A stretch of DNA of 64,000 nt from a virus: the IMG/VR virus record IMGVR_UViG_3300047445_000186, positions 255,829-319,828 of that record; one strand, 5' to 3'. The notes under the pieces were generated by a model. The model was not told the DNA's origin, did no database searches, and was given only the letters and a program-made list of their open reading frames with translations. Position numbers and translations under genes: made by a program. Positions 9,753 through 58,259 of the stretch are shown piece by piece; within the stretch, counting starts at the first letter, position 1, and every line of letters begins with the position of its first letter.

Positions 9753-10282
9753 AACTACAAGAACTAGCTAGCGCAGAGCGCTTTAATTCCACCACGCTGC
9801 TTGAAAGCGGCAACGCAGCCCTGCGCGCGAAACTCACTGATGATGAGTGCTTAGTTCTTGCGTTATTGATTCATGATAAGGGGCACATCATGGCCCGCGG
9901 TAATCATGACAGCGATTTAGATAGCGCGATCAGCAAGCTAAAGATGAAGTCTACTATCCCACTTTATCGTGGCGTGTCTGATAAGGAGTTAGCAGAGATT
10001 ATCGCTGGTGAAGCTGATCACTATCTCTCCTTCTCAGAAGATCGAAATGTTGCAAAGGGTTTTGGCGCGAATGTGATTACGCTAAAGCCTGGGGCTGTGG
10101 GTCTCTGTTACTGGAAATGGGGAATCGCAGATAATAAAGCGCTCGCGAAAAAGTATGGCAAGCAATGGGCTGAGGACCAGGATATTCAGTACATGATCGA
10201 TTCATTTGAGGAAGAGAAAGAGTGGGTGTTCCCGTTTGAGACACGGTTCACCCAAGTCGGACCTCTAGAGTTCAAGCAATGA
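9749..10282 (+). CDS. Mono-ADP-ribosyltransferase (R-S-E class)
   Basis: The 177-residue protein carries the ordered R-S-E motifs of arginine-specific ADP-ribosyltransferases: PLYRG with Arg74, YLSFSED with Ser94-Phe-Ser96, and EEEKEW with Glu156-Lys-Glu158. Such enzymes move ADP-ribose from NAD+ to target proteins; T4 Alt, ModA and ModB modify host RNA polymerase and other proteins this way. The N-terminus MKLQELASAERFNSTT is nearly identical to that of the next gene, then LLESG..ALRAKL repeats the leader of the previous gene. ATGA overlaps on both sides show one operon. Late expression and leader suggest injection with the DNA. Confidence 0.75.
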   Translation: MKLQELASAERFNSTTLLESGNAALRAKLTDDECLVLALLIHDKGHIMARGNHDSDLDSAISKLKMKSTIPLYRGVSDKELAEIIAGEADHYLSFSEDRNVAKGFGANVITLKPGAVGLCYWKWGIADNKALAKKYGKQWAEDQDIQYMIDSFEEEKEWVFPFETRFTQVGPLEFKQ

Positions 10283-11535
10283 AACTACAAGAACTAGCTG
10301 GTGCAAAGCGCTTTAATTCCACTGAGGGCGGTGGGATCACCGACGCTCTCGATCTTCTTCAAGCCGAATTCGAAGCTGGCAGAACGTCGCTTCGCATTCT
10401 CGGCACTGGCGCGAACGGCGTTGCCCTGACGAATGGCACGAGCGTTTTCAAGTTCTGGCATCGCGATAGCTCGTACGAGAAGTTCGTGAATTTCTGCCAC
10501 GAAAACAACAGCCCATTCCTGCCGAAGTTCACGTCAAAGATCAAGAACCTTTCTCCTCGCGTTTTCTATACAGCGACTGCTGATGAAGACGGCGAGAACA
10601 TCGTGAAGGGCGTGAAGTACGTGAAGATGGAACTCCTGAAGCCGTACAAGGGCCAAGGCGGTTGCGAGGTCTGGGCGGACAAGAACATCCAAAAGGCGAT
10701 CGGTGTTGACGACCCTGAGCTGGATGAGTACGGTGTCGTGAACTTCATGTCGTACGAAGACATCTGGAATTGCTCAGGTATGTCACGCACTCCTCGCGGC
10801 GCATTGATGGAGCTCTTGAGTCATCATGCCTTCCTGAATGATCATCTCGAGTACGAAGAACTGGTTCCATATCTCGAGAAGATGAACCGCGAGATCATCG
10901 ACATGGTCGGTGTTCTCGTGAAGCTTCATACGGTCTTTGGCAAGGAAGATCGACTGGATTTCGGCCCTCGGAACATGGCGCTTCGTGGAGACCAAGTCGT
11001 GATTCTCGATCCTATCGTGAACGACAATGACATCATCGTGAACAACATGATCATGGACTTGTCGAAGTACCGGACGCCGCCGAAGATCCAAGAGAGTACC
11101 GACACCGATGCCGAGCGTGAAGCTGTCGATGAGTGGATTGAAGCCGCTTATCTTGACGAGCCAGTGATGCGGAAGTTCCTGATGAAGGGGCTCCCTTCGT
11201 TTGGCGAGAAATGCTATCGAGCAGAGTTCGGCTCGAAGGCCAAGAAGTTCAAGGCGCTTCCGATTGGTGAGGACGTGGACATGTCATACAAGTCGGCTTC
11301 GGCGTCGATGGCTGCGCTCAATAACGGCGTGATCGAGCCGAACGGTGGTGAGCACTGGCTGCTCGAGCTTCGTATTCCAAGCGGGCTGCGCTGCGGTCGA
11401 GACATCAAGCACAGCGATCCCGAGCATCCCGAGAACGTGCAAGAGGAATTCTTGATCGGCCCGGGTGTGAAGTTCAAGATCATGAAGCAGCTCGCGGATC
11501 GAACGATTCTCGTTGCACAGAACTCCATGCACTAA
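10279..11535 (+). CDS. Protein kinase-like / ADP-ribosyltransferase fusion
   Basis: Residues about 36-270 have kinase-fold marks: glycine loop GTGANG at 42-47, Lys58 in VFKFW, catalytic loop DFGPRN with Asp227 and Asn232 spaced as in HRDxxxxN, and ILDP with Asp244 at the DFG position. Residues about 300-415 resemble the catalytic half of T4 Alt: CYRAE with Arg314, YKSASAS at 337-343, and QEEFLIGPGVKFKI at 388-401, where Gln388 replaces the first Glu of ExE. A variant Q-x-E motif is known in C3-type enzymes. The start MKLQELAGAKRFNST copies the preceding gene. The combination in one late phage protein is unusual; both activities are inferred. Confidence 0.7.
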   Translation: MKLQELAGAKRFNSTEGGGITDALDLLQAEFEAGRTSLRILGTGANGVALTNGTSVFKFWHRDSSYEKFVNFCHENNSPFLPKFTSKIKNLSPRVFYTATADEDGENIVKGVKYVKMELLKPYKGQGGCEVWADKNIQKAIGVDDPELDEYGVVNFMSYEDIWNCSGMSRTPRGALMELLSHHAFLNDHLEYEELVPYLEKMNREIIDMVGVLVKLHTVFGKEDRLDFGPRNMALRGDQVVILDPIVNDNDIIVNNMIMDLSKYRTPPKIQESTDTDAEREAVDEWIEAAYLDEPVMRKFLMKGLPSFGEKCYRAEFGSKAKKFKALPIGEDVDMSYKSASASMAALNNGVIEPNGGEHWLLELRIPSGLRCGRDIKHSDPEHPENVQEEFLIGPGVKFKIMKQLADRTILVAQNSMH

Positions 11536-12887: not shown

Positions 12888-12925
12888 TAAATAAGAACTG
12901 GTGCTGATGAGGCACCTTTTCTTTT
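12888..12925 (+). promoter_or_regulatory. Late promoter core followed by a hairpin
   Basis: TTAAATAA at 12887-12894 is followed by GGTGC (12900-12904) and GCACC (12912-12916) and a T-rich run. The hairpin could be a terminator for the preceding transcript, or the 5' end of a new transcript toward the Thg1-like gene, as at other late sites. A second palindrome CCGAGTGCACTCGG lies at 12861-12874. Confidence 0.45.
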
Positions 12926-12969
12926 ACCTGCGAACAGTGGGTACCTATCACAACCTCGGAGTACGAGAC

Positions 12970-13785
12970 ATGTCAGACCGCACCACCATCGGTGATCGGA
13001 TGAAGAGCTACGAAGCGCCTTCAACGACCCGCAAAGCTTTCAAGGGCCAGCCCCTCATTGTCCGCCTGGACGGAAGCTCATTCCACAAATTCACCAAGGG
13101 CATGAAGCGCCCATTCGATCTGGTTCTGAGCCAGCTCATGATCGACACCATGAAGTCCATGGTCGAGCGATACAACGCGAACATCGGGTACACGCAATCG
13201 GACGAGATCACGCTCGCCTGGTACATGGAGCCATTCGAATCTCGCGAGCTCGAGTTCGGTGGCCGCTTCCAGAAGTTCGAAAGCGAACTTGCTGCATGGT
13301 GTTCTGTGAAGTTCAACTCGCTCCTTCGCGAAACCGAGTACGCCAAGAAGGCAGAGATGCTGCCGTACTTCGATGCTCGCGCGTTCGTCGTGCCGAACTT
13401 GACCGAAGCGATGCACTGCTTCCTGTGGCGCCAGCAAGATTGCACGAAGAACGCGATCAGCATGGCCGCTCAGTCGATGTTCTCGCACAAGGAACTGCAA
13501 GGGAAACATGGGCCTGAGATGCAGGAGATGATGTTCCAGAAGTTCAACGTGAACTTCAACGACTACCCTTCGCACTTCAAGCGTGGCACGTTCGCTCGAC
13601 GCGTGAAGCGCGAGTGGTTCCCGTCCGATGCAGAGATCGAAGCGATTCCGGAGAAATACCGGCCAAGTGGGCCAATCCTCCGCTCGTTCGTGCAGACCGA
13701 AGACATCTGGCTATCGAAGCAACCGAGCGGAACGCAAGCTCTGTTCGGTGACGCACCGATCGTTACAAATGTTACGGTGTCATGA
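12970..13785 (+). CDS. Thg1-like 3'-5' RNA polymerase
   Basis: The 271-residue protein has the Thg1 signatures LIVRLDGSSFHKFTKGM with metal-binding Asp34 and NIGYTQSDEI with Asp78-Glu79. Thg1 adds nucleotides to the 5' end of tRNA; bacterial and phage Thg1-like proteins repair 5'-truncated tRNAs with templated 3'-5' synthesis. ATG 12970 was chosen because GGAG lies 9 nt upstream and the family normally starts close to this point. No tRNA gene is seen in this window, so host or distant phage tRNAs would be substrates. Confidence 0.88.
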   Translation: MSDRTTIGDRMKSYEAPSTTRKAFKGQPLIVRLDGSSFHKFTKGMKRPFDLVLSQLMIDTMKSMVERYNANIGYTQSDEITLAWYMEPFESRELEFGGRFQKFESELAAWCSVKFNSLLRETEYAKKAEMLPYFDARAFVVPNLTEAMHCFLWRQQDCTKNAISMAAQSMFSHKELQGKHGPEMQEMMFQKFNVNFNDYPSHFKRGTFARRVKREWFPSDAEIEAIPEKYRPSGPILRSFVQTEDIWLSKQPSGTQALFGDAPIVTNVTVS

Positions 13786-27883: not shown

Positions 27884-28768
27884 ATGCGTCTCGACGAACT
27901 CGCCGGTGTAAAGAAATTCCAGCGACTACAGTGGCATCAAATCACGCGTCTGCTTGATCGGAAATTCGGCATCAAATACATTGGTGGCGGAAAGTACGGT
28001 CAGGTTTTCACGCACCCGGGCTGGGACTACGTCGTGAAGATCATGGAGCGCGAGGACCCGAACTATCTGGAGTTCGTTGACTTCGCGCTGAAGCATCCAG
28101 ACAAGCATTATCCGAAGATCATCAAGAAGCCTTTCATGATGCACGCTTTTCACAAGCGTGAACGCAGCCAGAAGTACCAACGTCTGACTGTCCTGAAGAT
28201 CGAGAAGCTTCTCCCGATCGAGAAGAACAAGCTTGACTTCATTGTTCAGAACCTGGATCAATACGCCAGCATCGTCACTCGGTACAAGAACAACGAGTAC
28301 AAGCACGAGAAGAACCAAGAGGCGTACACGCAAAAGCATCCACACCACACGAAGGTCTTGCCTGACGGCACAAGTGAACAGAACCTGTCGTACAAGGACA
28401 TCTTCGATCGGTACCCATGGTTCGAGGATCTGTGCTGGGCATTCCGCCGGATCATGGACAACTCGGAGTACGGGTCGGCCGATATCCATGGTGGGAACTT
28501 CATGGAGCGGAAAGACGGCACCGTCGTGATCATCGATCCGCTGTGGGAAGGATACAACTTCGAAGCTGCTGCATGGCAGGCCGAGATGGCTGAACGCGGC
28601 GACTACTGGGGCGACTACGAAGAGCACATCCCAATGGTCAGCGGCCCCGGGTATGACAGTGCACGCAAGCGTGAAGAACAAGAAGCGCTCGAGAAGAAGG
28701 AAGCCGAAAAGGCGGCCAGGATTGCTGGCGTGTTCGCGCACAATTTCGACGACGATATTCCGTTCTGA
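27884..28768 (+). CDS. Protein kinase-like protein with capsid-type leader, 294 aa
   Basis: After the leader MRLDELAGVKKFQ the protein shows a glycine loop YIGGGKYGQVF (residues 32-42), Lys52 in YVVKIM, catalytic loop ADIHGGNF with Asp200 and Asn205, and IIDP with Asp218. This is the order of the kinase fold; phage-encoded kinases such as T7 gp0.7 phosphorylate host proteins. The last 45 residues are Glu/Lys-rich coiled coil. The leader matches those of the cassette at 9387-12851 and expression is late, so packaging and injection are plausible. Confidence 0.7.
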   Translation: MRLDELAGVKKFQRLQWHQITRLLDRKFGIKYIGGGKYGQVFTHPGWDYVVKIMEREDPNYLEFVDFALKHPDKHYPKIIKKPFMMHAFHKRERSQKYQRLTVLKIEKLLPIEKNKLDFIVQNLDQYASIVTRYKNNEYKHEKNQEAYTQKHPHHTKVLPDGTSEQNLSYKDIFDRYPWFEDLCWAFRRIMDNSEYGSADIHGGNFMERKDGTVVIIDPLWEGYNFEAAAWQAEMAERGDYWGDYEEHIPMVSGPGYDSARKREEQEALEKKEAEKAARIAGVFAHNFDDDIPF

Positions 28769-31408: not shown

Positions 31409-31448
31409 TAAATAGTCCTCAGAGGGCCACGTCGTGGCCGCAGAGGAC
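31409..31448 (+). promoter_or_regulatory. Late promoter core plus ribosome-site hairpin
   Basis: TAAATA (31409-31414) is followed by a long hairpin: GTCCTC (31415-31420) with GAGGAC (31443-31448) and GGCCAC (31425-31430) with GTGGCC (31434-31439). The GAGGA of the 3' arm is the ribosome site of the gene at 31452, so the hairpin would hide it. Confidence 0.6.
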
Positions 31449-31451
31449 TCC

Positions 31452-32675
31452 ATGACATCTCCGGTCGATACATCCGTCAAATCTTTCGATAGCACCATGC
31501 TCGGTGCTCCAGCCCTGAGTGGTACTGCTGGCACCACAATTGGCGTGCTTGATGCTTGCTTGGTGAACGGGTTCGACACACGTGCTGCTTCATCTATCGT
31601 TGTTTCAGGTGGTGTGGCTACGGTGAGCTACTCGGGTGCAGTGCACTCAGCTCGGTTGAACAGCGTTATTCTCGTGTCTGGCGTGACTGACATCACGTCG
31701 TTGAATGGTGAACAGAAGATCACGGCAGTCGGTTCTGGCTTCGTGAAGTTCGCGACAGCGGCCTCGCCAGGTACCGCAACCGGCACGATCTCGTTTAAGA
31801 TGGCTCCACTCGGATGGGTGAAGCCCTTCAATGGTACCAATATCGGCGTGTACCAGTCGAGTGACATCACGTCAACAAAGTGCTACCTTCGCGTTGACGA
31901 TACTGGTACCCAGACATGCCGCGTTATGGGGTACGAAACCATGACTGACGTGAACACTGGACTTGGTGGATTCCCGCTGTCTGGTCAGATTCTTGGTCCT
32001 GTCACAGGTGGTGGTTGGTGGTACAAGAGCGCTCAGGTCAACTCGACCCCAGTTGTGTGGTCTATTCACGGTGACGGCAAGATCTTCTACATCAACATTC
32101 AGATGGGAACTAGCACGAACGCCTCGTATCAAATGACGTCTGGGCGTGTGTTCGGTGATCCAATTCCGTACAGACCTGGCGGCGATCCATACTGCTGCAT
32201 TTTGAACTATGCCACTGCATCTGGTGGTATGGCCGGTGGTGTTGGAAATACGTACAGCTCATCTGCAAATTGCTCATTCGCGACACCTCGCGATTTCACT
32301 GGAATTGGATCCGCAGTTGGGAACTTCTTGATGCAGTTCGGAATCCCAGTAGGCTCTAACTCAAATTCAGGAATTACGAACTTGGCTGGGGCATTCCCAT
32401 CGTACATCGATGGAAGTCTTTGGTTGTTCCAGAAATTTCTTGCCGCAACTTCAACTGGCATGCCGCGGGCGCTCATGCCAGGTCTTTATATTTGCGGGCA
32501 GTCTAGCATCTATAACAACTTTAAGCAGGGCGATACGACCCCAGGCACAGGTGCTCTTGCTGGTCGATGGCTACGTGCAGCAACGTCAAATGATGATGCA
32601 ACCGTGCCGAACACGGCAAGCACAACGGCGAACACAGGTATCATTTTCTTTGATGACACTGGGCCGTGGAGATAA
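31452..32675 (+). CDS. Tail fibre/adhesin-associated protein A1, 407 aa
   Basis: The protein begins MTSPVDTSVKSFDSTMLGAP and is one of three paralogues (also 34942 and 49108). All share VDDTGT, VGYESMTDVNTG-type text, FYLNVQ, FGDxIPxKPGGDPYxCxxNY and DFTGxGS motifs, and a conserved end GIIFFDDTGPWR. I recognise it as a common phage structural family without a named domain. It starts at ATG 31452 to match its paralogues. The following gene encodes a modular adhesin only 3 nt later, so the two are probably assembled together. Confidence 0.78.
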   Translation: MTSPVDTSVKSFDSTMLGAPALSGTAGTTIGVLDACLVNGFDTRAASSIVVSGGVATVSYSGAVHSARLNSVILVSGVTDITSLNGEQKITAVGSGFVKFATAASPGTATGTISFKMAPLGWVKPFNGTNIGVYQSSDITSTKCYLRVDDTGTQTCRVMGYETMTDVNTGLGGFPLSGQILGPVTGGGWWYKSAQVNSTPVVWSIHGDGKIFYINIQMGTSTNASYQMTSGRVFGDPIPYRPGGDPYCCILNYATASGGMAGGVGNTYSSSANCSFATPRDFTGIGSAVGNFLMQFGIPVGSNSNSGITNLAGAFPSYIDGSLWLFQKFLAATSTGMPRALMPGLYICGQSSIYNNFKQGDTTPGTGALAGRWLRAATSNDDATVPNTASTTANTGIIFFDDTGPWR

Positions 32676-34941: not shown

Positions 34942-36147
34942 ATGACATCTCCAGTAGATACATCCGTAAAATCATTCGACTACTCAATGTTGGGAGCGGC
35001 TGCCCTGAGCGGCACGGTCGGCTCGTTGTTGCCAATTCTTGACCAATGCCTGGTGAATGGGTTTGACACTCGAGCAGCGTCAAGCATTGTCGTTTTTGGC
35101 GGGATCGCGACAGTAAGCTACACCGGCATTACGCACTCTGCGCGTTTGAACTCGGTTATTCTCGTGACTGGTGTGACTGACCTTACGGCCCTGAACGGAG
35201 AACAGAAGGTCACCGCCGTCGGCTTCGGTTTCATTAAGTTCGCAACCAGTGTTGCGAACGGTACCGCGACCGGTACGATCTCGTTCAAGATGGCTCCACT
35301 TGGATGGGCGATTGCGCAGACAGGTACTAATCTTCGCGCGTACAAATCGACCGATGTTACATCGACCGGCTGCATTCTTCGTGTCGACGACACCGTTGCC
35401 ACGTCGTGCCGTGTCGTTGGATACGAAAGTATGACCGACATCAATACTGGTCTTGGCGCATTCCCGACTGCTTCGCAACAGCCTGGCGGCGGGTACTGGG
35501 TGAAGAGCATTACGGCCTCGGCGGGTACTGTCCTCTGGTCTATCCATGGGGATGGGAAGGTGTTCTACCTGAATGTTCAGCCTGGTAGCGTTTCTGGCGC
35601 AGGTTTTCAGATCACTTCTAATCGTATGTTCGGAGACATTATTCCGTTCAAACCGGGTGGTGATCCTTATGCGTGCGTAATGAACTACTCGATCACGTCA
35701 ACGATTGGCGCGATGCACGACGCCGGTGTTGGTGGGTCGGCTGTCACTCAGTTCGCTCAACCACGCGACTTCACGGGGCTTGGATCAGCGGTGATCTCGT
35801 TTATCTACCCGTACAACGGCACGACTCTGAACACAATTTCCGGCATTACCTCGATTGCAGGTCCATTCCCATCTCAGGTAGATGGTGGCATTTGGTTGAG
35901 CTCAAAGTATCTGAACACCACCACCAGCGTTGGCATGCGTGGTCAGCTTCCAGGCGTATTGCACTGTGGTCAGAGCGGGGTATGGGCCTCGTTTAAAATG
36001 GGTGACACGACGCCCGGCTCTGGCCCCCTCGCCGGGCGTTCGCTGCGCGCTACAACAGCAGGGCACGATACGACAGGTAGTAACACCACCTCGTCAACTG
36101 CAAACACCGGGATCATGTTCTTCGACGACACTGGGCCTTGGCGATAA
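34942..36147 (+). CDS. Tail fibre/adhesin-associated protein A2, 401 aa
   Basis: This is a close paralogue of A1 (start MTSPVDTSVKSFDYSMLGAA; end FFDDTGPWR) with the shared VDDT, DPYAC and DFTGLGSAV motifs. The region between residues 200 and 330 differs most, as expected for host-range diversification. It is followed after 3 nt by adhesin B2, repeating the A-B order. Confidence 0.78.
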   Translation: MTSPVDTSVKSFDYSMLGAAALSGTVGSLLPILDQCLVNGFDTRAASSIVVFGGIATVSYTGITHSARLNSVILVTGVTDLTALNGEQKVTAVGFGFIKFATSVANGTATGTISFKMAPLGWAIAQTGTNLRAYKSTDVTSTGCILRVDDTVATSCRVVGYESMTDINTGLGAFPTASQQPGGGYWVKSITASAGTVLWSIHGDGKVFYLNVQPGSVSGAGFQITSNRMFGDIIPFKPGGDPYACVMNYSITSTIGAMHDAGVGGSAVTQFAQPRDFTGLGSAVISFIYPYNGTTLNTISGITSIAGPFPSQVDGGIWLSSKYLNTTTSVGMRGQLPGVLHCGQSGVWASFKMGDTTPGSGPLAGRSLRATTAGHDTTGSNTTSSTANTGIMFFDDTGPWR

Positions 36148-49107: not shown

Positions 49108-50310
49108 ATGACATCTCCAGTCGATACCTCAGTTAAGTATTTCAGCTCGAATATGCCGAACGCTCCAGTGCTGAGCGGCACTGCCGGCGCGCTGATTGCA
49201 TTGCTGGACGCTTGTCTCAAGGACGGCTTCAACTCGATTACACCGACATCGATTGTGGTCGCTGGAGGTATCGCTACTTTGAGCTGGGCCTCTGGTACGT
49301 TCGCGGCACTGCCAGACTCGGTAGTGCTGATTGCTGGCGTGACCGACAAGACCGGCCTGAACGGTGAGCAGAAAGTGCTCACCAAGAGCGCGCTGTCAAT
49401 CACGTTCGCAACTGCTGAGACTGCTGGCACTGCAACGCTCTCCGCTGCCACGGTGAAGATCGCGCCGCTTGGATGGCTGAAGCCTCAATCAGGTACCAAC
49501 CTTGCAGCGTACCAATCAAGTGATTCACTGTCTACCAAGATGCTACTGCGTGTTGATGACACCGGAACCACGATGGCCCGCGTTGTCGGATACGAGTCCA
49601 TGACCGATGTGAACACTGGAGTGAACCCATTCCCTTCAGCGGCTCAGATGTCAGGTGGCGGTTATTGGTCGAAGAGCGTGAATGCGAGCGCCGCTACCGT
49701 GAATTGGTCCTTGCATGGCGATGGAAGAATCTTCTATCTTAACGTTCAGCCAGGATCGTCGAACGCTTTGGTGAATCAAATTTGTTCAGGCAAGGTCTTT
49801 GGAGACGTGATTCCGACCAAGCCGGGCGGAGACCCTTATGCCTGCTGCCTGAACTACGCCCAGACCGCAACGATTGGTAACCAGACCGATGGCGCGTTCG
49901 GCGCGTCTGGCGACTTCAAGTTCGCCATGCCTCGCGATTTCACAGGATTGGGGTCTTCAGTGATGTACGGCGCGTGGACTTTGACTGGAAATGGCGGAGT
50001 TTCAGGTCTAGCGAACGCCCTTGGCTCGTTCCCTTCCCCAATTGACGGCGGCCTTTGGCTGTGCAAGAAGTTCCTGTACACTTCTATTCTCAGTTCCCCT
50101 CGTGCCATTTTCCCAGGCCTCCTGAACGTCGTCCAGTCTGGCGTTTGGAATTCCTTCAAGCAAGGAGACTCAGTGCCGGGGTCTGGGATTTACGCGGGTA
50201 AGAACCTGATGGCGGCAACGACATCTGACAACTCGACGGCGTTCACCACAGCTTCTACTGCAGCTAACACTGGCATCATCTTTTTCGACGTCACAGGCCC
50301 TTGGAGATAA
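49108..50310 (+). CDS. Tail fibre/adhesin-associated protein A3, 400 aa
   Basis: The third paralogue of the A family (MTSPVDTSVKYFSSNMPNAP, VDDTGTTMARVVGYESMTDV, and end FFDVTGPWR). It is the most divergent of the three and lacks a B-type adhesin behind it; a 2OG-oxygenase-like gene takes that place. It has no promoter of its own close by and probably shares the late transcript from 48286. Confidence 0.78.
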   Translation: MTSPVDTSVKYFSSNMPNAPVLSGTAGALIALLDACLKDGFNSITPTSIVVAGGIATLSWASGTFAALPDSVVLIAGVTDKTGLNGEQKVLTKSALSITFATAETAGTATLSAATVKIAPLGWLKPQSGTNLAAYQSSDSLSTKMLLRVDDTGTTMARVVGYESMTDVNTGVNPFPSAAQMSGGGYWSKSVNASAATVNWSLHGDGRIFYLNVQPGSSNALVNQICSGKVFGDVIPTKPGGDPYACCLNYAQTATIGNQTDGAFGASGDFKFAMPRDFTGLGSSVMYGAWTLTGNGGVSGLANALGSFPSPIDGGLWLCKKFLYTSILSSPRAIFPGLLNVVQSGVWNSFKQGDSVPGSGIYAGKNLMAATTSDNSTAFTTASTAANTGIIFFDVTGPWR

Positions 50311-50311
50311 G

Positions 50312-50938
50312 TTGATCCACAGTCCGTTCCATACCGTTGAGAACTTCATCTCTCCACTGCAATGTGAAATCATTGCAGATCGCCTGAAGCTGAATGTTCC
50401 AAGCTACGCTGAAGATGGTCAGCCTCTGAAGTACGAATGCCGTGTTCCCGTTGAACTGGCAGGAAATATCGCATCAGAGCTGGACGCCCTGTCACCGCTG
50501 CTTGAGCGACGTTATGGTGCTCAGATTTCCGCTGAACCAGCGCTGTTGTTCCAGCAGTACTGGGAGAACGCGAAAGCTCCAGCAGAACAGATCGGCTGCG
50601 AGAACTCAAAGTTCTCACGGAAGAAGTGGATCAAGACGAAGGACGTCGATCTGGTCGGATTTATCTGGCTGAAGTCGTTCCACAACTCGGTTCCGCTCGA
50701 TCCTCGCCACGAGGTCTATGGCGGCAAGCTCGAATTTCCTGGGTACAACTTCAGCCTGACGCCGGTCCGCGGCACGCTGGTAATCTTCCCAGCTACTCCG
50801 CACTTCATCACGGCCACGTCGCACGTGATGCTCGGTTCTCTTGAGCAAATCAAGCTGAACATCAAGCTCAAGGACTGGCAGTACCAGCCTGAGAGTTTTC
50901 CAGGCACGTACCAAGAGTGGTTCTTCCCTGAAGAGTAA
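50312..50938 (+). CDS. 2OG-Fe(II) oxygenase-like protein, 208 aa
   Basis: The start is TTG in GGAGATAAGTTGATC, with the ribosome site inside the end of A3. YGGKLEFPGYNFSLTPVRGT followed by LVIFPATPHFITATSHVM resembles the double-stranded beta-helix of prolyl-hydroxylase-like enzymes. A canonical HxD pair is not evident (TKDVDLVGFIW at that place), so iron binding may be altered. T4-like cyanophages often carry such genes near fibre genes. The enzyme might modify a fibre or be a structural relict. Confidence 0.65.
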   Translation: MIHSPFHTVENFISPLQCEIIADRLKLNVPSYAEDGQPLKYECRVPVELAGNIASELDALSPLLERRYGAQISAEPALLFQQYWENAKAPAEQIGCENSKFSRKKWIKTKDVDLVGFIWLKSFHNSVPLDPRHEVYGGKLEFPGYNFSLTPVRGTLVIFPATPHFITATSHVMLGSLEQIKLNIKLKDWQYQPESFPGTYQEWFFPEE

Positions 50939-50991
50939 TCTGTAACGGCGTTACAGATTCGTTTACACGCATTCCCAGGATGCTGTACAAT
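50937..50991 (+). promoter_or_regulatory. Early promoter with palindromic GTTACAGATT box
   Basis: AATCTGTAAC (50937-50946) and GTTACAGATT (50950-50959) are perfect inverted repeats with a 3-nt spacer, overlapping the preceding stop. TACAAT is at 50986-50991, with TTTACA 18 nt upstream (50962-50967). The box is 36 nt before TACAAT, ten more than in its paralogue at 30692. The palindrome may also act as a terminator. Confidence 0.6.
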
Positions 50992-51011
50992 TCACCATCG
51001 ACACTGAAACG

Positions 51012-51338
51012 ATGATGAACATGAAAAATCCCGCCCTCGCAAATCTCACGCCGGTCAGCTCCGAATCGCTGAGCTGCTCGATGGCGCGGAAACTGCTCCT
51101 GGGCGATATCAGCGATCTGAACGTCCGTCGCTTCGAACACATCTACAACGACCCCCGCCCGCACGTCGGTCTTGCTCTGAAGGGCAAGGAAGGGAACGTC
51201 ACGGTCTGGGCCCTCACGAAGGAACTCCGCGACGAACGCGAGAACGAGCTGATCGGTTGGGAACTCACGCCGATTCGCGAAACCATCGAAGCTCAGCCGT
51301 CGCTCGCCGGCTGGACCCTCCGTTTGCTGAACGACTAA
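51012..51338 (+). CDS. Early hypothetical protein, 108 aa
   Basis: The first of six closely spaced small genes. The start could be ATG 51012, 51015 or 51021; GAAACG lies just upstream. The sequence ends with a beta-alpha-beta pattern (GNVTVWALTKELRDERE). No family recognised. The promoter is related to the one of the genes at 30753. Confidence 0.65.
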   Translation: MMNMKNPALANLTPVSSESLSCSMARKLLLGDISDLNVRRFEHIYNDPRPHVGLALKGKEGNVTVWALTKELRDERENELIGWELTPIRETIEAQPSLAGWTLRLLND

Positions 51339-51350
51339 GAAGGAAAAATC

Positions 51351-51629
51351 ATGGCAAGCTTCAACGACTTCCCGGCGAACTGGCGCGAAATCACGCAAGA
51401 GGTGTTCGCCAAGAGCCGGCACTTCACGTTCGCGCCGGTGAACATCGAGTTCCGGCAGATGATCGATCGGAATGATCGCTCCAAGCCGCCGCTGAATGCC
51501 AGGCTCGAGTGGCAAGCCGACGGCACCGGGTACTCGATCGTGAACGACTACTGGGCCGGGACCGTGAAGCTCTTCGCGTTCGGCGAGCGTACGCCCGGTC
51601 TGGTCGAAAACTTCGATTCTTCGGACTGA
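51351..51629 (+). CDS. Early hypothetical protein, 92 aa
   Basis: AAGGAAAAATCATG gives a good ribosome site. The product MASFNDFPANWREITQEVFA is a small alpha-beta protein with an acidic end. It is 12 nt after the previous gene and 2 nt before the next. Confidence 0.65.
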   Translation: MASFNDFPANWREITQEVFAKSRHFTFAPVNIEFRQMIDRNDRSKPPLNARLEWQADGTGYSIVNDYWAGTVKLFAFGERTPGLVENFDSSD

Positions 51630-51631
51630 TC

Positions 51632-51937
51632 ATGTCGATCTCCATCGTCGCCGGCGGCGACCTGTACAAGCGGCTCCAGCAGGAGATGCTGATCAACGTT
51701 CCGCGCCAGACCACCCTGACCGGGTTTCAAGAGCGGATTGCTGACCGCGGCTTTCGCGGCGCTGAGCTGATCGAAGGTGCGCATGGTTGGTGCCTTCGGT
51801 ACGACTCTGGTCTGCAGGGTTTCGACATCATCAAGGTCGACGGTCTTCCGGGCACGTTCTTCACGGCATGCAAGAAGGCCACGGCCTGGGTCGCCGAAGA
51901 CCCACTTCATCGGTACGCTTTTGTGAGGACAGTATGA
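51632..51937 (+). CDS. Early hypothetical protein, 101 aa
   Basis: The start ATG 51632 follows the previous stop by 2 nt. MSISIVAGGDLYKRLQQEML continues as an alpha-beta protein. No family was recognised. Its stop overlaps the next start (ATGA). Confidence 0.65.
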   Translation: MSISIVAGGDLYKRLQQEMLINVPRQTTLTGFQERIADRGFRGAELIEGAHGWCLRYDSGLQGFDIIKVDGLPGTFFTACKKATAWVAEDPLHRYAFVRTV

Positions 51938-52248
51938 GAGCACATCTCTGTTTCATCGGTGGCGGCGATCGCATCGAACGGTACTGCCCGGGCTGCATCG
52001 ACGAAAGGCGAGCCATGAAAATGAACATCGTGTACTGCCATGTCGGGTACGACCAAGCGTCGGCCCACTCCAGAATCAAGCCGAACATGCCTGACAACAT
52101 GAGGCTCACGTTCAATGACGCTGGCGTGCTGATCCGCGCCGATGTCCTGTCGCCGATCGAGCGGCGGGTGAAAGCCATGCGCGCGGCCGATGTGGAACAA
52201 TCCGATCGCGAATACATTCTGTCTACTCAACGTAAGGGGAAAATCTGA
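51934..52248 (+). CDS. Early hypothetical protein, 104 aa
   Basis: The product MRAHLCFIGGGDRIERYCPG has Cys6, Cys18 and Cys21 (CPGC) that could bind a metal, and an inner Met-rich stretch (MKMNIVYCHVGYD) that could be a second start. Coupled to neighbours by ATGA on one side and a 1-nt overlap on the other. Confidence 0.6.
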   Translation: MRAHLCFIGGGDRIERYCPGCIDERRAMKMNIVYCHVGYDQASAHSRIKPNMPDNMRLTFNDAGVLIRADVLSPIERRVKAMRAADVEQSDREYILSTQRKGKI

Positions 52249-52487
52249 TGTGGGAAAACCGTCGCAATGCTGGCTCGGCGAGCTGGACCGGAGTTGACAA
52301 GAAGAAGGTCGACGCGGCCAAGAAGAAGGAATGGCTCCAGAAGCTGAACCAAGGCAAGCGCGGCCAGAAGGGGTTCACGCTGATCGAGCTCATGATCGTG
52401 CTCGCGATGGTCACGATCGTTCTCGCCATGGTCGGCCCCGGCATGTGGGGTTACCTTGGTGAACTTTTCGCGGTCGTGTCGAAATGA
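52248..52487 (+). CDS. Type IV prepilin-like protein, 79 aa
   Basis: RGQKGFTLIELMIVLAMVTI is a perfect class III signal: Gly42, Phe43 at +1, Glu47 at +5, and a following hydrophobic helix to about residue 63. In pilins the PilD peptidase cleaves after the Gly and methylates the Phe, and Glu5 guides assembly. The leader here is basic and long (42 residues), and the mature part would have only 37 residues, with no pilin head. It lies in an early operon of small genes. A decoy that blocks host pilus assembly, or excludes other phages, is an inference; chance resemblance is unlikely at this length. Confidence 0.75.
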   Translation: MWENRRNAGSASWTGVDKKKVDAAKKKEWLQKLNQGKRGQKGFTLIELMIVLAMVTIVLAMVGPGMWGYLGELFAVVSK

Positions 52488-52735
52488 GCGACGCAATGAA
52501 TGAGCTGTTCGCAGCGACTGAAAAGCGGCGCGCTGAAATCCAACTCGAGCACATCGAGAAGATGATCGAGATGTCAAATCAGATCGCCAAAGATCTGCTG
52601 AACGGAATCGGCTTTGAGGAGCGGCCGAAGCTCAGCGATCATAAGATGCAGCTCATCTTGCTGAACAACATGGCGAACAAGCTTCAGCGCCGTGTGATCA
52701 TGATGCTGGCTGCGGCCGGTCAAGACGGCACGTAA
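52484..52735 (+). CDS. Early helical protein, 83 aa
   Basis: The protein MSDAMNELFAATEKRRAEIQ is predicted helical throughout, possibly a coiled coil. It overlaps the prepilin-like gene by 4 nt and the convergent repeat gene by 16 nt. It may be a partner of the prepilin-like protein because they are translationally coupled. Confidence 0.65.
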   Translation: MSDAMNELFAATEKRRAEIQLEHIEKMIEMSNQIAKDLLNGIGFEERPKLSDHKMQLILLNNMANKLQRRVIMMLAAAGQDGT

Positions 52736-55134
52736 TCCTGCCAAGACCCGATGTTCTGACTTGGTCCTACCCAGTGGTAGACCTTGTTCAGAACGCCTAG
52801 ATCGCCAGTGTCGAGCTCGGCGTAATTCATGTGAATCAAGACTCGCTTCGGTCCAGTGTTCAGGACTGCAGGCGAGATTGGCAGGCCATCGCCTCCCGTG
52901 AGAGTCATTGGCTCGAACGCTGACAGAAGCTTCTCGTCTCCCTTGTCGTCTTGCGAGTCCTCGTTCTTTTTGGACGAGGACGGTCCGCTTCCGGAATCCC
53001 CACCAGCACTTGTTCCAACAATCGCGCCTGGAGTACCTTCAGGTCGATCTGGCATGTACACCCACGTGTCGCCATTCAGGGAGGCCCGGAGCTCTCCAAT
53101 GTCCCAGCCTGTTGTACTACTTGTACTGCCAGAGCCGGTGTCTCCGGTGTCGCCTGAAGAGCCCGAGTCGCCTCCTGCCGAGGTGTCTCCACCAGCAGAA
53201 GTATCTTCTGGCGTGATCGTCTTCAGGACGAGATCGTATGTGCGAACCCGAGGGCGAATGTACAGGACCCCGTTCGTCGGCCACACGACGGACCCGAGCT
53301 TGAACGAGACTGCAGGGTTGCTGAACAATTTGCCTGGGGTGACAGTTCCGAGATCCTTCACAAGGGTCCCGACGTCGTCGGCTATTTGCCAACTAATGCC
53401 GTATAAACTCGCCCCTAACGAGCCATTCGGCGCCTTTTGAATTCTGATCTCTTGGTCCCAGTCGAGTTTCAAGCTAAGCAGATCAATGTCGGGGATCGAC
53501 ATATTCTGCACGCTCAATGACTCGTCTGGAGCGAGAGCTGTGTGCTGGATTACGCAGAGACCTTCACTGAGATCGTCGTTCTCGACGACACTGATCCTAA
53601 TCAAATTGGCTGCTTGACCACGTTCAACTGATCTAAAATAGGTACCACCTGCCCACAGTCGCGCGCGGGTGCTTGATGACGTCTTCAGGAACACTGGCCC
53701 CTGCATCGTCGGCTTGAACTCGCCCTTAACCGGCGCTTGTTGCGCAGCAATCTTAACGACATCCAGTGTCGCGGGTCTGCCAGTGATCTTGAACGTGCCA
53801 GCCGTCGCCCGTACAATCGGAGCAATCTTAGCGGTCGATGGGTAACCAGTGACAGTGAACGCGCCTGTTCCAAGGAACATTGGCCGATCAATGAGCCGCC
53901 AGACCGTGAAGTTCGCGCCATTGCTGCCGATCGTGAACGCACCAATACTTGGTGAGAGCTTGTACGAGAGCTTGCTCTCAATCGACGTGCTGCCGATAAT
54001 GAAGTTCGCCGTTCCAGCATTGATCTTCCGCTGGAACAGGTACTTGGTGTCGCGACCCTGAACGGCGTACGCACCTGTCGCTCCAGCTGGAACGTGGTTG
54101 TACACCCAGCGCATGCTTGGCGCACTGATTGTGAACGTACCCGCCAAGAACCCAGCGCCAGTAGACGAAATTAGCGCTGTAGATCCGTCAATCGAGAATG
54201 CGCCAACGGCTGGCGACCACTGATGTCCGCGCCAGATCTTTGCCGAGCGGGTCCCAATGCTGAACGAACCTGTTCCTGCTCGAATCGCGCGACCAAGCGA
54301 TGTCGTGGAAAGAACACCGGTGATGTTGAACGCAGCGGGATCAACTCGCCAGGCGGTGTTGTTCTTCGTGAACGCAGCTGGAGGCGTATCAATCGTGAAT
54401 GCCTGCGGAACAGGCACGTTGATACGACGGGATCTAATGTAAGACGCCGCTGGGTAATCAATCGTGAACGTGCTGGTCGATGTGAACCACTTACGTCCAG
54501 TGAACTTGAACAGGACATCGCGACCAGTGATCGTGTACGCACCAGTCGTCTCACCCCATGCTCGCGTTCTTGCAATTCGGCCATTTGATCCAACGACCGT
54601 GAATGACGATGGTGGCAGGAACCACTCAAGATCTGCGCGTTGGAAGAACGCCAGATAGCTGTTGTCGATCGTAAAGACGCCTGGCTGCGTTCTAAGCTTG
54701 TGCGCTACCGACGGCTGAACAGTTGCCCCAGTGTACGTGAATACGCCAGGTGATACAGGGAACTTATGGGCGAACGTGATTTTGGCTGGGAAGCCAACTA
54801 CGTTGAACGCGCCAGTCGGCGCTGGCATTGTGCGCGTGAGCGATTGCCGTGCCGAATTTCCAGAGTAATTGAACGTGCCTGGTGCTAGCGACCAGAACAC
54901 CGATGTCGAAATCGCCGCCGACGACGGCGTGATCGAGAACGCCCCTGGCGTTGCATCGAAGGAATATGAGTTCGCGGTTCCAACAGAACCGAATAGCAGG
55001 GTAACCGAGGACGCCCCTGCAGTAGGAACGCCCGCGAACGTCAGGTGGGCCGCAGACGACATCGGCGTCAACGACCCAGAGACGGTACTTACGGCGAAAG
55101 AGCTAGGTGTACAACTGAGGAGATAGTCAGCCAC
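52720..55134 (-). CDS. Tail protein with about 18 tandem 23-residue repeats, 804 aa
   Basis: Residues about 60-480 consist of roughly 18 repeats with the core G-(A/T/V)-F-(T/S)-I-(T/D)-G, for example PGAFSITPSSA, TGAYTITGRDV, AGTFKITGRPA, each about 23 residues. The unit suits a beta-solenoid or stacked beta-strand fibre shaft. Residues 655-690 are Gly/Asp/Ser-rich (DTSAGGDTSAGG), followed by a compact end (VYHWVGPSQN). It lies in the minus-strand tail operon and its last 16 nt overlap the convergent early gene. Probably a tail fibre or spike. Confidence 0.8.
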   Translation of the reverse strand: MADYLLSCTPSSFAVSTVSGSLTPMSSAAHLTFAGVPTAGASSVTLLFGSVGTANSYSFDATPGAFSITPSSAAISTSVFWSLAPGTFNYSGNSARQSLTRTMPAPTGAFNVVGFPAKITFAHKFPVSPGVFTYTGATVQPSVAHKLRTQPGVFTIDNSYLAFFQRADLEWFLPPSSFTVVGSNGRIARTRAWGETTGAYTITGRDVLFKFTGRKWFTSTSTFTIDYPAASYIRSRRINVPVPQAFTIDTPPAAFTKNNTAWRVDPAAFNITGVLSTTSLGRAIRAGTGSFSIGTRSAKIWRGHQWSPAVGAFSIDGSTALISSTGAGFLAGTFTISAPSMRWVYNHVPAGATGAYAVQGRDTKYLFQRKINAGTANFIIGSTSIESKLSYKLSPSIGAFTIGSNGANFTVWRLIDRPMFLGTGAFTVTGYPSTAKIAPIVRATAGTFKITGRPATLDVVKIAAQQAPVKGEFKPTMQGPVFLKTSSSTRARLWAGGTYFRSVERGQAANLIRISVVENDDLSEGLCVIQHTALAPDESLSVQNMSIPDIDLLSLKLDWDQEIRIQKAPNGSLGASLYGISWQIADDVGTLVKDLGTVTPGKLFSNPAVSFKLGSVVWPTNGVLYIRPRVRTYDLVLKTITPEDTSAGGDTSAGGDSGSSGDTGDTGSGSTSSTTGWDIGELRASLNGDTWVYMPDRPEGTPGAIVGTSAGGDSGSGPSSSKKNEDSQDDKGDEKLLSAFEPMTLTGGDGLPISPAVLNTGPKRVLIHMNYAELDTGDLGVLNKVYHWVGPSQNIGSWQDYVPS

Positions 55135-55661: not shown

Positions 55662-55958
55662 TCACTCTTCGATTGAAACGTCAGGTGAGCCCTGGATCGC
55701 GACACCATCGTGCCAGCGCTTTCCACAGATGTGGAGCATGATCCGCGTCTTGTTCTTCAGAGCGACAGGCTGCTTGTTCACAAAGACCGTGTTCGAAAAG
55801 TTCGAAATGAACACGGACGGTGGGAAGCAGTAATGTCCAGTCGTCATTCGCTGACCCATGTGCGTGATCGGCATTCCGTTCGCGAACACGTTATCAGATC
55901 CCTGAGCACTGAAGTCACCACAGGAAACGCCATCACCGATCCGGACTACGTTCCCCAT
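55662..55958 (-). CDS. PAAR-repeat spike tip protein, 98 aa
   Basis: The PAAR pattern appears three times: GDGVSCGDF..GSDNVFANGM, H....SNFSNTVFVNKQPVA and CGKRWHDGVAIQGSPDVSIE. PAAR proteins form a sharp zinc-bound cone at the tip of phage spikes; in T4 this is gp5.4. Candidate metal ligands are His in GHYCFP and Cys/His in LHICGKRWHD. It overlaps the stop-start of the murein hydrolase by one nt, consistent with assembly in the baseplate hub. Confidence 0.85.
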   Translation of the reverse strand: MGNVVRIGDGVSCGDFSAQGSDNVFANGMPITHMGQRMTTGHYCFPPSVFISNFSNTVFVNKQPVALKNKTRIMLHICGKRWHDGVAIQGSPDVSIEE

Positions 55959-57565
55959 TATGTCAGGCTCTGCACGTACGACATCGACTTCGAAGCACGA
56001 TCAAGCCAACCGTTCTGATACTTCGGATTTCCGATGTTCTTGATGAACTGTACTCGAGCAGCGTTCAGCTTCCGGCAATCTTCAAGTGCCTTATCGGCCG
56101 AGTCACTTGTCGCGCTTGTGATCCCGGCATTCGCGTAGATCGTCCGAGCATTACCACAGCCATGGTGATAATTGATGTCGAACAACATCACCCCAACCTT
56201 CTTTGCCTTGTTCGCACAGGACGAAGAGCTGATCTTCCAGTAGTTGTTGAACCCCATCTGCTTCGCAGCAGCGTAGTCCATTGTCGTGACCTTCACGCTA
56301 GGATTCGGCTTCTGAGCAATCCCGAACTTCGTTTCTCCACCTGGGAAATTCTGCGTGTTCACGTACCCGACCTTGTAGCGTTGCTGCTTCGTCTCAATCA
56401 GACCAGCATCGAGCTCAGAGTCGCCTGGAGAGAATTGCGGAGACGTCATCCAGTGTGGACCGACCTCGCTTTGCATCGTGAACTTCCAAGCCTTTTCGAA
56501 TGGATCGTCTGACTCTGGCGTAGGGTCTGTCGTCTCTGGAGGATCTGCAGCCGGGTATGTTGGGCCGTACGGCTCGCAGCTGTTCTGCTTTGCTTCGGCT
56601 TCCTTCTCGGACATCGAAGCATTCGAATTCTTGGTGCTCAGTGACGATTGATCTGCGTCACCATTCGGCAGAGTCTTATCTGCAACAGTGAGCGAACCAT
56701 TGATCAGCGGTTCTGGATCGACGAACTTGCCGTCAGGGAGCTTCACTTCAAAGTGCAAGTGATTGCCAGTGCTGGAACCAGTCGTACCTTCAAGCGCGAT
56801 CTTTTGGCCAGCCATAACCTTCTGGCCTTGAGTGACGTAGATCTTGTTCAAGTGATTGTACGTGGTCGTACAAAGGTGCTTACCAGACGAAGTGGTGTGC
56901 TTCACCCAGACACGAATGCCGTACCCAGTGCTTGGATTACCGCCGCACATTTGAACTTCACCGTCAGCTGCAGCAACGACGTCCTTCACTGAACGATCAG
57001 AGTACTTCATGTCGATCCCAGTGTGCATCTTCTGCACCTTCTGGATTGGGTGCATCCGCAGTCCGAACTTAGAGTTCACGATTGCGCCAGGCAGTGGAGA
57101 GATCAAACGAATCTCGTCACTCTCACCGCCCTTTGTAGGAGCGATCACGAATGCACGATTGTCAATTGTGCCGTCTGGATCAGAGGCTTCAACTTGGACG
57201 TTGTACGTCTTACCGATTGCTTCATCACTGAACGTGCCAGAGAGCAGACCTTCAGTCGTCATTGTCAGACCTGGAGGAGTCTCAGAGATCGTCCATGACG
57301 TTGCTGTCCGATCAGAGCCAGCAGTAAGCTTGAACTGAGTGTTCGTGCTCACTGCACTGGAAGAACGAGTAAGAGGAACAGAGTTGTTCTCGATCTTGTT
57401 CTTCACGTTATCAGTTGCGTCATCATGCTTGCCAGAGGTGTTCCCACCACGCGCCATGTAGCACTCGATACTTTCGCCTGGACGAATATCGGATTCAGCA
57501 CCGTTCGCTTCATTGAAAGCTCCGCCGACTGATACCGCAGCCGGAGCGCCTGGGCAGCATGACAT
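55958..57565 (-). CDS. Baseplate murein hydrolase: Ig-like, M23 and GH108 domains, 535 aa
   Basis: Residues 63-142 resemble a putative Ig domain. An M23 endopeptidase domain has His181-x3-Asp185 (KMHTGID) and His269-Leu-His271 (HLHFEV). Residues 354-535 resemble GH108 lysozymes: FEKAWKFTMQSEVGPHW with catalytic Glu367, GGETKFGIAQ, and LFDINYHHGCGNA. It would cut both peptide crosslinks and glycan during DNA entry. T4 gp5 has only a lysozyme domain. It is coupled to the PAAR tip, and there is no signal peptide, so a virion role fits better than lysis. Confidence 0.9.
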   Translation of the reverse strand: MSCCPGAPAAVSVGGAFNEANGAESDIRPGESIECYMARGGNTSGKHDDATDNVKNKIENNSVPLTRSSSAVSTNTQFKLTAGSDRTATSWTISETPPGLTMTTEGLLSGTFSDEAIGKTYNVQVEASDPDGTIDNRAFVIAPTKGGESDEIRLISPLPGAIVNSKFGLRMHPIQKVQKMHTGIDMKYSDRSVKDVVAAADGEVQMCGGNPSTGYGIRVWVKHTTSSGKHLCTTTYNHLNKIYVTQGQKVMAGQKIALEGTTGSSTGNHLHFEVKLPDGKFVDPEPLINGSLTVADKTLPNGDADQSSLSTKNSNASMSEKEAEAKQNSCEPYGPTYPAADPPETTDPTPESDDPFEKAWKFTMQSEVGPHWMTSPQFSPGDSELDAGLIETKQQRYKVGYVNTQNFPGGETKFGIAQKPNPSVKVTTMDYAAAKQMGFNNYWKISSSSCANKAKKVGVMLFDINYHHGCGNARTIYANAGITSATSDSADKALEDCRKLNAARVQFIKNIGNPKYQNGWLDRASKSMSYVQSLT

Positions 57566-57855
57566 TACTTCTTCTCTTCCTTAGTGACTGGTTGCTCGTA
57601 GAACGAGATCAACTCTTTGATCAGCGACTCGAGGTCCATCTGACGCTTCTCATTCGCGATGATCCACTGAGCGAGCTCAAGCTGATTTGCCGTTTGAACG
57701 TCAATCGGAGCTGGGTAAACGGGGATCTGCTTCTGAGCAGCCGAGGCAGTACGGACGACGTACTTCGTTTCAGTCACGACGTCTCGCTTTGTCTCGAACG
57801 TGCCAAAGCAGCCAGTCAACATCAGCGCTGCGATAATTGCAACAAGGTATTTCAT
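57565..57855 (-). CDS. Outer-membrane lipoprotein, o-spanin candidate, 96 aa
   Basis: The N-terminus MKYLVAIIAALMLTGCFG is a lipoprotein signal peptide with the lipobox LTGC at 13-16. The mature part is charged with helical stretches. It overlaps the i-spanin candidate by 4 nt, the usual Rz/Rz1 arrangement, but as a separate downstream gene. Spanins fuse inner and outer membranes in the last step of lysis of Gram-negative hosts. Confidence 0.85.
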   Translation of the reverse strand: MKYLVAIIAALMLTGCFGTFETKRDVVTETKYVVRTASAAQKQIPVYPAPIDVQTANQLELAQWIIANEKRQMDLESLIKELISFYEQPVTKEEKK

Positions 57856-58259
57856 TTCACGACCTTTGGAGTGCGTTGAGCCTGAATCCGAGCGATAACT
57901 TCCTGCAGAACAGGGCTGAGCTTCACTTGATTCTCTGGGTTCGAGGCTTGGTTCTTGATCACATCACCGAGAGCGGTGATCACCTTTGCATCACGTTGAC
58001 GAGCAGCTTCCAGATTTGCGAGAGACACTTCAATGTCTTTCTTTTCTTTCTTCATCGCGTCAATCGTCTCGGTGCTGGTCTTGTTCGCAGTGATTGCCGT
58101 ATCAAGAGCGCGTTCAGCAGATTCCTTGGCAGCAACTGCCTCGACCCGAGCCGTGTTCGCTCTTTGGAGCTTCACGTACTGTAGTCCGCCCCAAGCACCA
58201 ACGCTTGCGATCGCGATCGCTGCGAAAATCGCAATGATCTTAGTTGAGATACCGAACAT
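57852..58259 (-). CDS. Inner-membrane spanin (i-spanin) candidate, 135 aa
   Basis: A single N-terminal membrane segment (IIAIFAAIAIASVGAWGGLQ) is followed by a long coiled coil (AVAAKESAERALDTAITANK onward) and a basic C-terminus, as in Rz-like proteins. The complex with the lipoprotein would span the periplasm. The location inside a tail-gene block is a little unusual. Confidence 0.85.
   Translation of the reverse strand: MFGISTKIIAIFAAIAIASVGAWGGLQYVKLQRANTARVEAVAAKESAERALDTAITANKTSTETIDAMKKEKKDIEVSLANLEAARQRDAKVITALGDVIKNQASNPENQVKLSPVLQEVIARIQAQRTPKVVK

Follow-up and report, generated by a model that had tools for sequence, protein, structure and literature searches.

Several phage proteins are known to disable type IV pili (T4P). 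PfsE, a 30-amino-acid (aa) phage membrane peptide encoded by Pf phage (PA0721), halts T4P through PilC (PMC8764522), and the phage proteins Tip/Aqs1, Zip, and PIT4 are described as binders of PilB, PilZ, or histidine kinases (PMC11656802, PMC10714779). Phage LSL4 has been reported to use T4P as a receptor and to encode the anti-T4P protein PIT4, and a screen of >150 early phage genes in strain PAO1, which may or may not have included a gene of the type described below, yielded only two twitching inhibitors (PMC10714779). Prepilin-like genes are likewise known from the annotation of phage genomes. Pilin similarity was already annotated by the depositors of the Aeh1, PX29, and Aes508 genomes, the PHROGs database holds a "pilin" family (phrog_3433), and a 2026 paper mentions one pilin-like open reading frame (ORF) in phage ValKK3, ORF231 (PMC13142089). 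The "pilin" of cyanophage ACG-2014f and gp11 of Pseudomonas phage F10 also carry class III signals, followed by a long C-terminal part (123 to 210 aa in total). No functional study of short phage prepilin-like proteins was found in the literature searched.

The window analyzed here, a stretch of 64,000 nucleotides, corresponds to positions 255829 to 319828 of a 331,776-bp virus record and contains a small ORF with a prepilin signal, referred to as the mini-prepilin gene. Like PfsE, its predicted product would be a very small phage membrane protein with a cytoplasmic N terminus, but PfsE carries a YXWGW motif, and its published description makes no mention of a prepilin-like nature. Tip/Aqs1, Zip, and PIT4 have the role that is proposed below for the mini-prepilin, but their descriptions include no prepilin signal. 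Neither they nor PfsE came up in the database scans, whose libraries may lack them. The ACG-2014f and F10 proteins share the phage-encoded class III signal but, unlike the mini-prepilin, retain their C-terminal parts. According to the initial annotation of this DNA, the anti-pilus proteins known from phages target assembly ATPases, which does not hold for PfsE (PilC), Zip (PilZ), or PIT4 (PilS/FleS). A truncated PilA of Pseudomonas aeruginosa PAO579 was considered as a functional precedent but not adopted, as its effect has been attributed to an FTF motif at the C terminus (PMC3684759) that is missing from the mini-prepilin.

The mini-prepilin gene (positions 52248 to 52487, + strand) encodes 79 aa and begins with an ATG codon, 8 nucleotides downstream of a Shine-Dalgarno-like AAGGGG (52234 to 52239, + strand). 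Its start overlaps the stop of the preceding ORF (TGATG), and the start of the next ORF overlaps its own stop (ATGA at 52484), so that the arrangement is that of translationally coupled phage genes. Codon usage in this frame scored 0.52 bits per codon, compared to ≤0.06 in the five other frames, which rules out a wrong strand or frame, and the score was the highest of all genes in the surrounding cargo block. The translation reads MWENRRNAGSASWTGVDKKKVDAAKKKEWLQKLNQGKRGQKG up to the predicted cleavage position and FTLIELMIVLAMVTIVLAMVGPGMWGYLGELFAVVSK after it. Inspection of the sequence revealed no other possible start codon (ATG, GTG, or TTG) from residue 1 up to the cleavage site.

The mini-prepilin matched the Pfam model PF07963 (N_methyl; E = 1.9e-9, 37.1 bits, cutoff of 21.2) and the NCBIfam model TIGR02532 (IV_pilin_GFxxxE; E = 1.2e-7, 31.3 bits, curated cutoff of 16.3). 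When the whole 331,776-bp record was searched with the N_methyl profile, it was the sole match (38.1 bits, E = 5e-10). Chance occurrence of the motif was rejected because of these profile scores, far above the cutoff, and the single match in the record. No subunit-specific equivalog pilin model matched at its cutoff, and searches for bacterial homologues returned only generic pilin-motif matches, with none at full length. The predicted prepilin peptidase site lies between Gly42 and Phe43 (52371 to 52376, + strand), as judged from the motif and an alignment of 11 phage members. The predicted mature part (52374 to 52484, + strand) consists of 37 residues, with Phe1, Glu5 (Glu47 of the precursor), a hydrophobic helix of 21 residues, Pro22, and 15 further residues that form no C-terminal globular head. 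These features include those by which class III signals are defined (Gly at −1, a hydrophobic residue at +1, Glu at +5, and about 21 hydrophobic residues), and they agree with the initial annotation, which had listed Gly at −1 (42), Phe at +1 (43), Glu at +5 (47), the hydrophobic helix, and a 37-residue mature part without a globular domain; Pro22 is an addition to that list.

The predicted leader (52248 to 52373, + strand) is hydrophilic and basic, with a net charge of +8, but at 42 aa it lies outside the 6 to 26 aa published as the leader range of class III signals and used as a criterion for prepilin-like proteins (PMC4471445). The "perfect processing site" of the initial annotation is therefore limited to the cleavage site and the helix, and a leader longer than the range given in that review might block processing of the mini-prepilin. 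A single-sequence AlphaFold model (mean pLDDT of 72) predicted helices at residues 18 to 38, which fall within the leader, and at residues 45 to 61 and 63 to 77. By its sequence, the gene product is a type IV prepilin-like protein lacking a head, and because it has no head, it is unlikely to be built into filaments as an ordinary subunit.

The best PDB sequence matches of the mini-prepilin were to Geobacter-type geopilin domain 1 (7tgg and 9egp), a bacterial filament subunit with a pilin chain of 69 to 90 aa and a longer helix, whereas the mini-prepilin retains 37 mature residues. Short pilins that lack their own globular head thus exist in bacteria, which would suit a role in which the stub is coassembled and alters pili (retraction, control of DNA uptake, or adsorption) instead of inhibiting them. 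This role is very unlikely, given that the mini-prepilin is much shorter than geopilin domain 1 proteins and that no recognizable partner head adjoins it; in the next ORF (52484 to 52735, + strand; 83 aa), visual inspection showed neither a membrane signal nor a secretion signal. That ORF had no significant match, including none in the PDB, and was not found beyond this virus. Across the 331,776-bp record, no recognizable prepilin peptidase was found, and no pilus or secretion ATPase and no further pilin or T4P genes scored above the cutoff. The closest named DNA polymerase to that of the virus was that of phage XacN1, at only 33% identity, and no host is claimed for the virus for that reason.

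The mini-prepilin gene lies in a cargo block of six small ORFs (51012 to 52735, + strand) that is absent or replaced in relatives of the virus, which were located via two neighboring genes. The left border gene (50312 to 50938, + strand), with weak similarity to 2OG-oxygenases, is kept in relatives at 47 to 69% identity. The right border gene (52720 to 55134, − strand) is convergent; it encodes a large protein of tail type, the C-terminal part of which is kept in most relatives, and it is followed by a small gene (55662 to 55958) and an endolysin gene (55958 to 57565), which are also mostly kept. The gap between the left gene and the tail gene measures about 16 bp in relatives L043 and L045, about 90 bp in L080, about 510 bp in L044, and about 640 bp in L078, where it holds two different small ORFs. 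It is filled by a 220-aa kinase-like ORF in L081, and in the window (50938 to 52720) it spans 1.8 kb with the six small ORFs. These differences in length and content mark the junction as a variable cargo site. No N_methyl gene was found anywhere in the records of L043, L044, and L045, which may be fragments, and a second copy of the mini-prepilin gene occurred only in a contig that shares 10 kb of identical sequence and thus represents the same genotype. The neighbors within the block had no match above Pfam cutoffs and none in PHROGs or PADLOC. The kinase-like ORF at this junction in L081 (12351 to 13013) and two kinase-like ORFs of the window (10279 to 11535 and 27884 to 28768, both + strand) have similar N termini by eye (MK/MR...ELA... 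GGG/GTGA..GVAL/QVF).

The mini-prepilin gene had been placed in an early operon, which its position does not establish. Only one gene follows it in a run of + strand genes that includes both a helicase gene with phage relatives (40563 to 41978) and tail-type genes (49108), and the block ends against the convergent tail and lysis genes. No T4-type late promoter (TATAAATA) was found within the window, and no timing was inferred; scans for sigma-70 promoters and terminators performed no better than shuffled sequences and were uninformative. A single-span N-in/C-out holin or antiholin would be a small protein of this kind near lysis genes, and endolysin- and spanin-like genes (55958 to 58259) lie about 3.5 to 5.8 kb away. 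They are on the opposite strand and in a separate transcription unit, though, the relatives retain the endolysin without a mini-prepilin at the site, and no role in holins is known for the invariant prepilin residues, so that a lysis function is extremely unlikely.

A tblastn search with motif-bearing queries against 50,697 phage records matched 159 to 183 records, and many of those whose genes were read contained complete, very short prepilin-like ORFs of 28 to 107 aa. These included Aeh1p044 (28 aa), PX29 gp038 (31 aa), an ORF of AhP_Mru1 (37 aa), PhiW-14 gp119 (44 aa), KPP10 gp132 (59 aa), KVP40.0030 (66 aa), Aes012_095 (75 aa), 1.081.O_058 (82 aa), an ORF of PhiXhv-16 (99 aa), and Acibel004_97 (107 aa). 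The initial annotation knew of no other pilin mimic of this kind; similar ORFs have in fact been deposited for KVP40, Aeh1, PX29, KPP10, PhiW-14, and others, some of them annotated with a similarity to pilins. Headless prepilins have been in databases for years and, according to the literature found, have apparently been neither grouped nor tested. Two matches were discarded: that of Salmonella phage Munch lacked the Gly/Phe/Glu motif, and that of Acinetobacter "phage" MD-2021a sits among bacterial-type genes (bacterioferritin and LemA) and was left out of the evidence. LSL4 encodes PIT4 and, separately, a mini-prepilin; the possibility that they are the same protein was rejected, as PIT4 is gp67 (131 aa) and the mini-prepilin is gp166.

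Like KVP40.0030, Aeh1p044, PX29 gp038, KPP10 gp132, PhiW-14 gp119, Acibel004_97, and Aes012_095, the window protein has Gly at −1, Phe at +1, Glu at +5, and a hydrophobic helix, and like the short prepilins of other phages, it has little or no head and a single copy per record searched. It differs from them in genomic position, in having no similarity beyond the motif, and in its leader, which is 42 aa compared to about 2 to 7 aa. In the alignment of 11 phage members, G−1, F+1, T+2, L+3, and E+5 were invariant (G42, F43, T44, L45, and E47 in window numbering), and the remainder was largely unrelated. Mature parts of ≤100 aa were found in 20 of 79 closed prepilins on viral contigs and in 2 of 77 bacterial prepilins, both from Gram-positive species (P = 4e-5, with nonindependent samples); three ORFs that ran off a contig end (one viral, two bacterial) and one misread bacterial frame were left out by hand. 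Within the samples taken, short prepilins are thus commoner in viruses than in bacteria. The window protein had the shortest mature part in the 79-ORF viral sample, and Aeh1p044 and PX29 gp038 are shorter still. It falls within an informal group of complete phage ORFs with a class III signal and a mature part of ≤100 aa, of which it is a variant whose leader is unusually long and predicted to be helical in part. This group-level pattern is of more interest than the window gene alone.

The unusual length and predicted helix of the leader could also mean that the prepilin segment is only an anchor or processing signal and that the job, unrelated to pili, lies in the leader helix (residues 18 to 38) or the C-terminal tail. 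The wide variation of C-terminal parts among other phages, some with a small two-cysteine tail, is in keeping with such a delivery role. Aeh1p044 and PX29 gp038, by contrast, consist of the signal and helix alone, and Glu5 and Phe1, not needed for mere anchoring, are invariant in the 11 members; we regard a pure delivery signal as unlikely. Many other viral short prepilins (for example, in L206, L210, L234, L238, L247, L017, L021, L026, and L029, at L066:1501-1824, and at L075:1498-1725) have a tiny tail with two cysteines 10 to 30 residues apart and a Gly soon past the first (C-x2-G... C). This tail looks as if it were a minimal disulfide-closed head; neither the window protein nor the shortest members have it.

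Short prepilins were under purifying selection in both phage groups tested, by simple counting on few sequences. In the KVP40 group, the ratio of nonsynonymous to synonymous changes (dN/dS) was 0.20 overall but about 0.11 for the motif alone; in Nankokuvirus, it stayed near 0.2 throughout. This selection and the recurrence of closed short prepilins argue against passive cargo, that is, a recently captured or decaying 5′ fragment of a pilin gene without function in the window virus. No pilin remnant was found downstream of the mini-prepilin gene, where the overlapping ORF comes next, and the clean, coupled ORF, which has a ribosome site and outscores the rest of the block in codon usage, points the same way. 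The variable site, the absence of the gene in relatives, and its restriction to one genotype are what a functionless fragment would lead one to expect, but this explanation is nonetheless quite unlikely.

The hosts of the carrier phages were Pseudomonas, Vibrio, Aeromonas, Acinetobacter, Delftia, Xanthomonas, and Synechococcus, and carriers infect hosts bearing T4P or type II secretion systems (T2SS), with records counted without phylogenetic correction. No genuine match was found among about 1,345 Escherichia, Klebsiella, Salmonella, Shigella, and Enterobacter records with a T4-like polymerase; of five Salmonella matches, the one that was fully read lacked the motif and another came from a Salmonella strain, as a large draft contig with an annotated prepilin-type protein. 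For Vibrio, Aeromonas, and Acinetobacter combined, there were up to 67 matches, compared to 293 records with a T4-like polymerase, although the records are nonindependent and the matches include some Acinetobacter bacterial DNA and some carriers that are not T4-like, so that the very small P value of this contrast is purely descriptive. The distribution bears on a further alternative, in which the stub poses as accumulated prepilin to a PilS-type sensor kinase and pilin transcription is turned off. Mini-prepilins are present in phages of Vibrio and Aeromonas too, where, to our knowledge, PilSR control of the P. aeruginosa kind is not expected. Cleavage slowed by the long leader would favor signaling mimicry; in P. 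aeruginosa, a buildup of unprocessed pilin represses pilA through PilS and leads to phage resistance (PMC13170266), and PilS is already the target of the phage protein PIT4 (PMC10714779). On balance, this alternative is quite improbable.

For a prepilin-type protein without a head, the most economical idea is that of a pilin mimic in the membrane pool that hampers the biogenesis of type IV filaments in the host, a reading to which we give somewhat less than an even chance. PfsE offers a precedent for a tiny phage membrane protein that halts T4P, and LSL4, reportedly dependent on T4P, combines PIT4 with a mini-prepilin; the long leader and the low yield of twitching inhibitors in the PAO1 screen speak against the reading. 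For the window gene, the motif, the missing head, and the accessory location are directly seen; recurrence, purifying selection, and host distribution are seen in the stubs of other phages. As the motif and prepilin biology suggest, the basic leader would remain cytoplasmic, and the hydrophobic helix would enter the inner membrane, N-in/C-out. The virus has no recognizable peptidase of its own, and hence a host PilD-type prepilin peptidase, if present, would cut after Gly42 and may methylate Phe1. The 37-aa product would join the pilin or pseudopilin pool with Phe1 and Glu5 intact and no head, and there it could disturb the assembly or dynamics of a host type IV filament (T4P, T2SS, or a competence pilus) by occupying the platform, the base of the filament, or the peptidase. 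The likely benefit would be a pilus or secretion portal shut to rival phages or an envelope reshaped during infection. A broader and more doubtful proposal is that headless prepilins form a recurrent counter-host class, captured by or arisen in many unrelated phage lineages, that poisons or switches off host type IV filaments from within the membrane pool by subunit mimicry, with the leader helix of the window protein as a second contact. If so, subunit mimicry would give phages a means of disabling pili, and perhaps T2SS, that is distinct from the known PilB, PilC, PilZ, and PilS binders, and it would account for a set of "hypothetical proteins" that has been overlooked in familiar phages, KVP40 and KPP10 among them.

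Other genes of the window were noted in passing. Three paralogous tail-type genes (31434 to 32675, 34942 to 36147, and 49108 to 50310, all + strand) encode proteins that start with MTSPVDTSVK; the third, of the phrog_9998/9600 family, adjoins the left border gene of the cargo block and appears to be missing between the same neighbors in relatives. The endolysin-like protein (55958 to 57565, − strand; 535 aa) matched no named phage over most of its length, and its middle resembles M23 peptidases from phages of Gram-positive and cyanobacterial hosts. An ORF at 12901 to 13785 (+ strand) resembles tRNA-His guanylyltransferase by eye.
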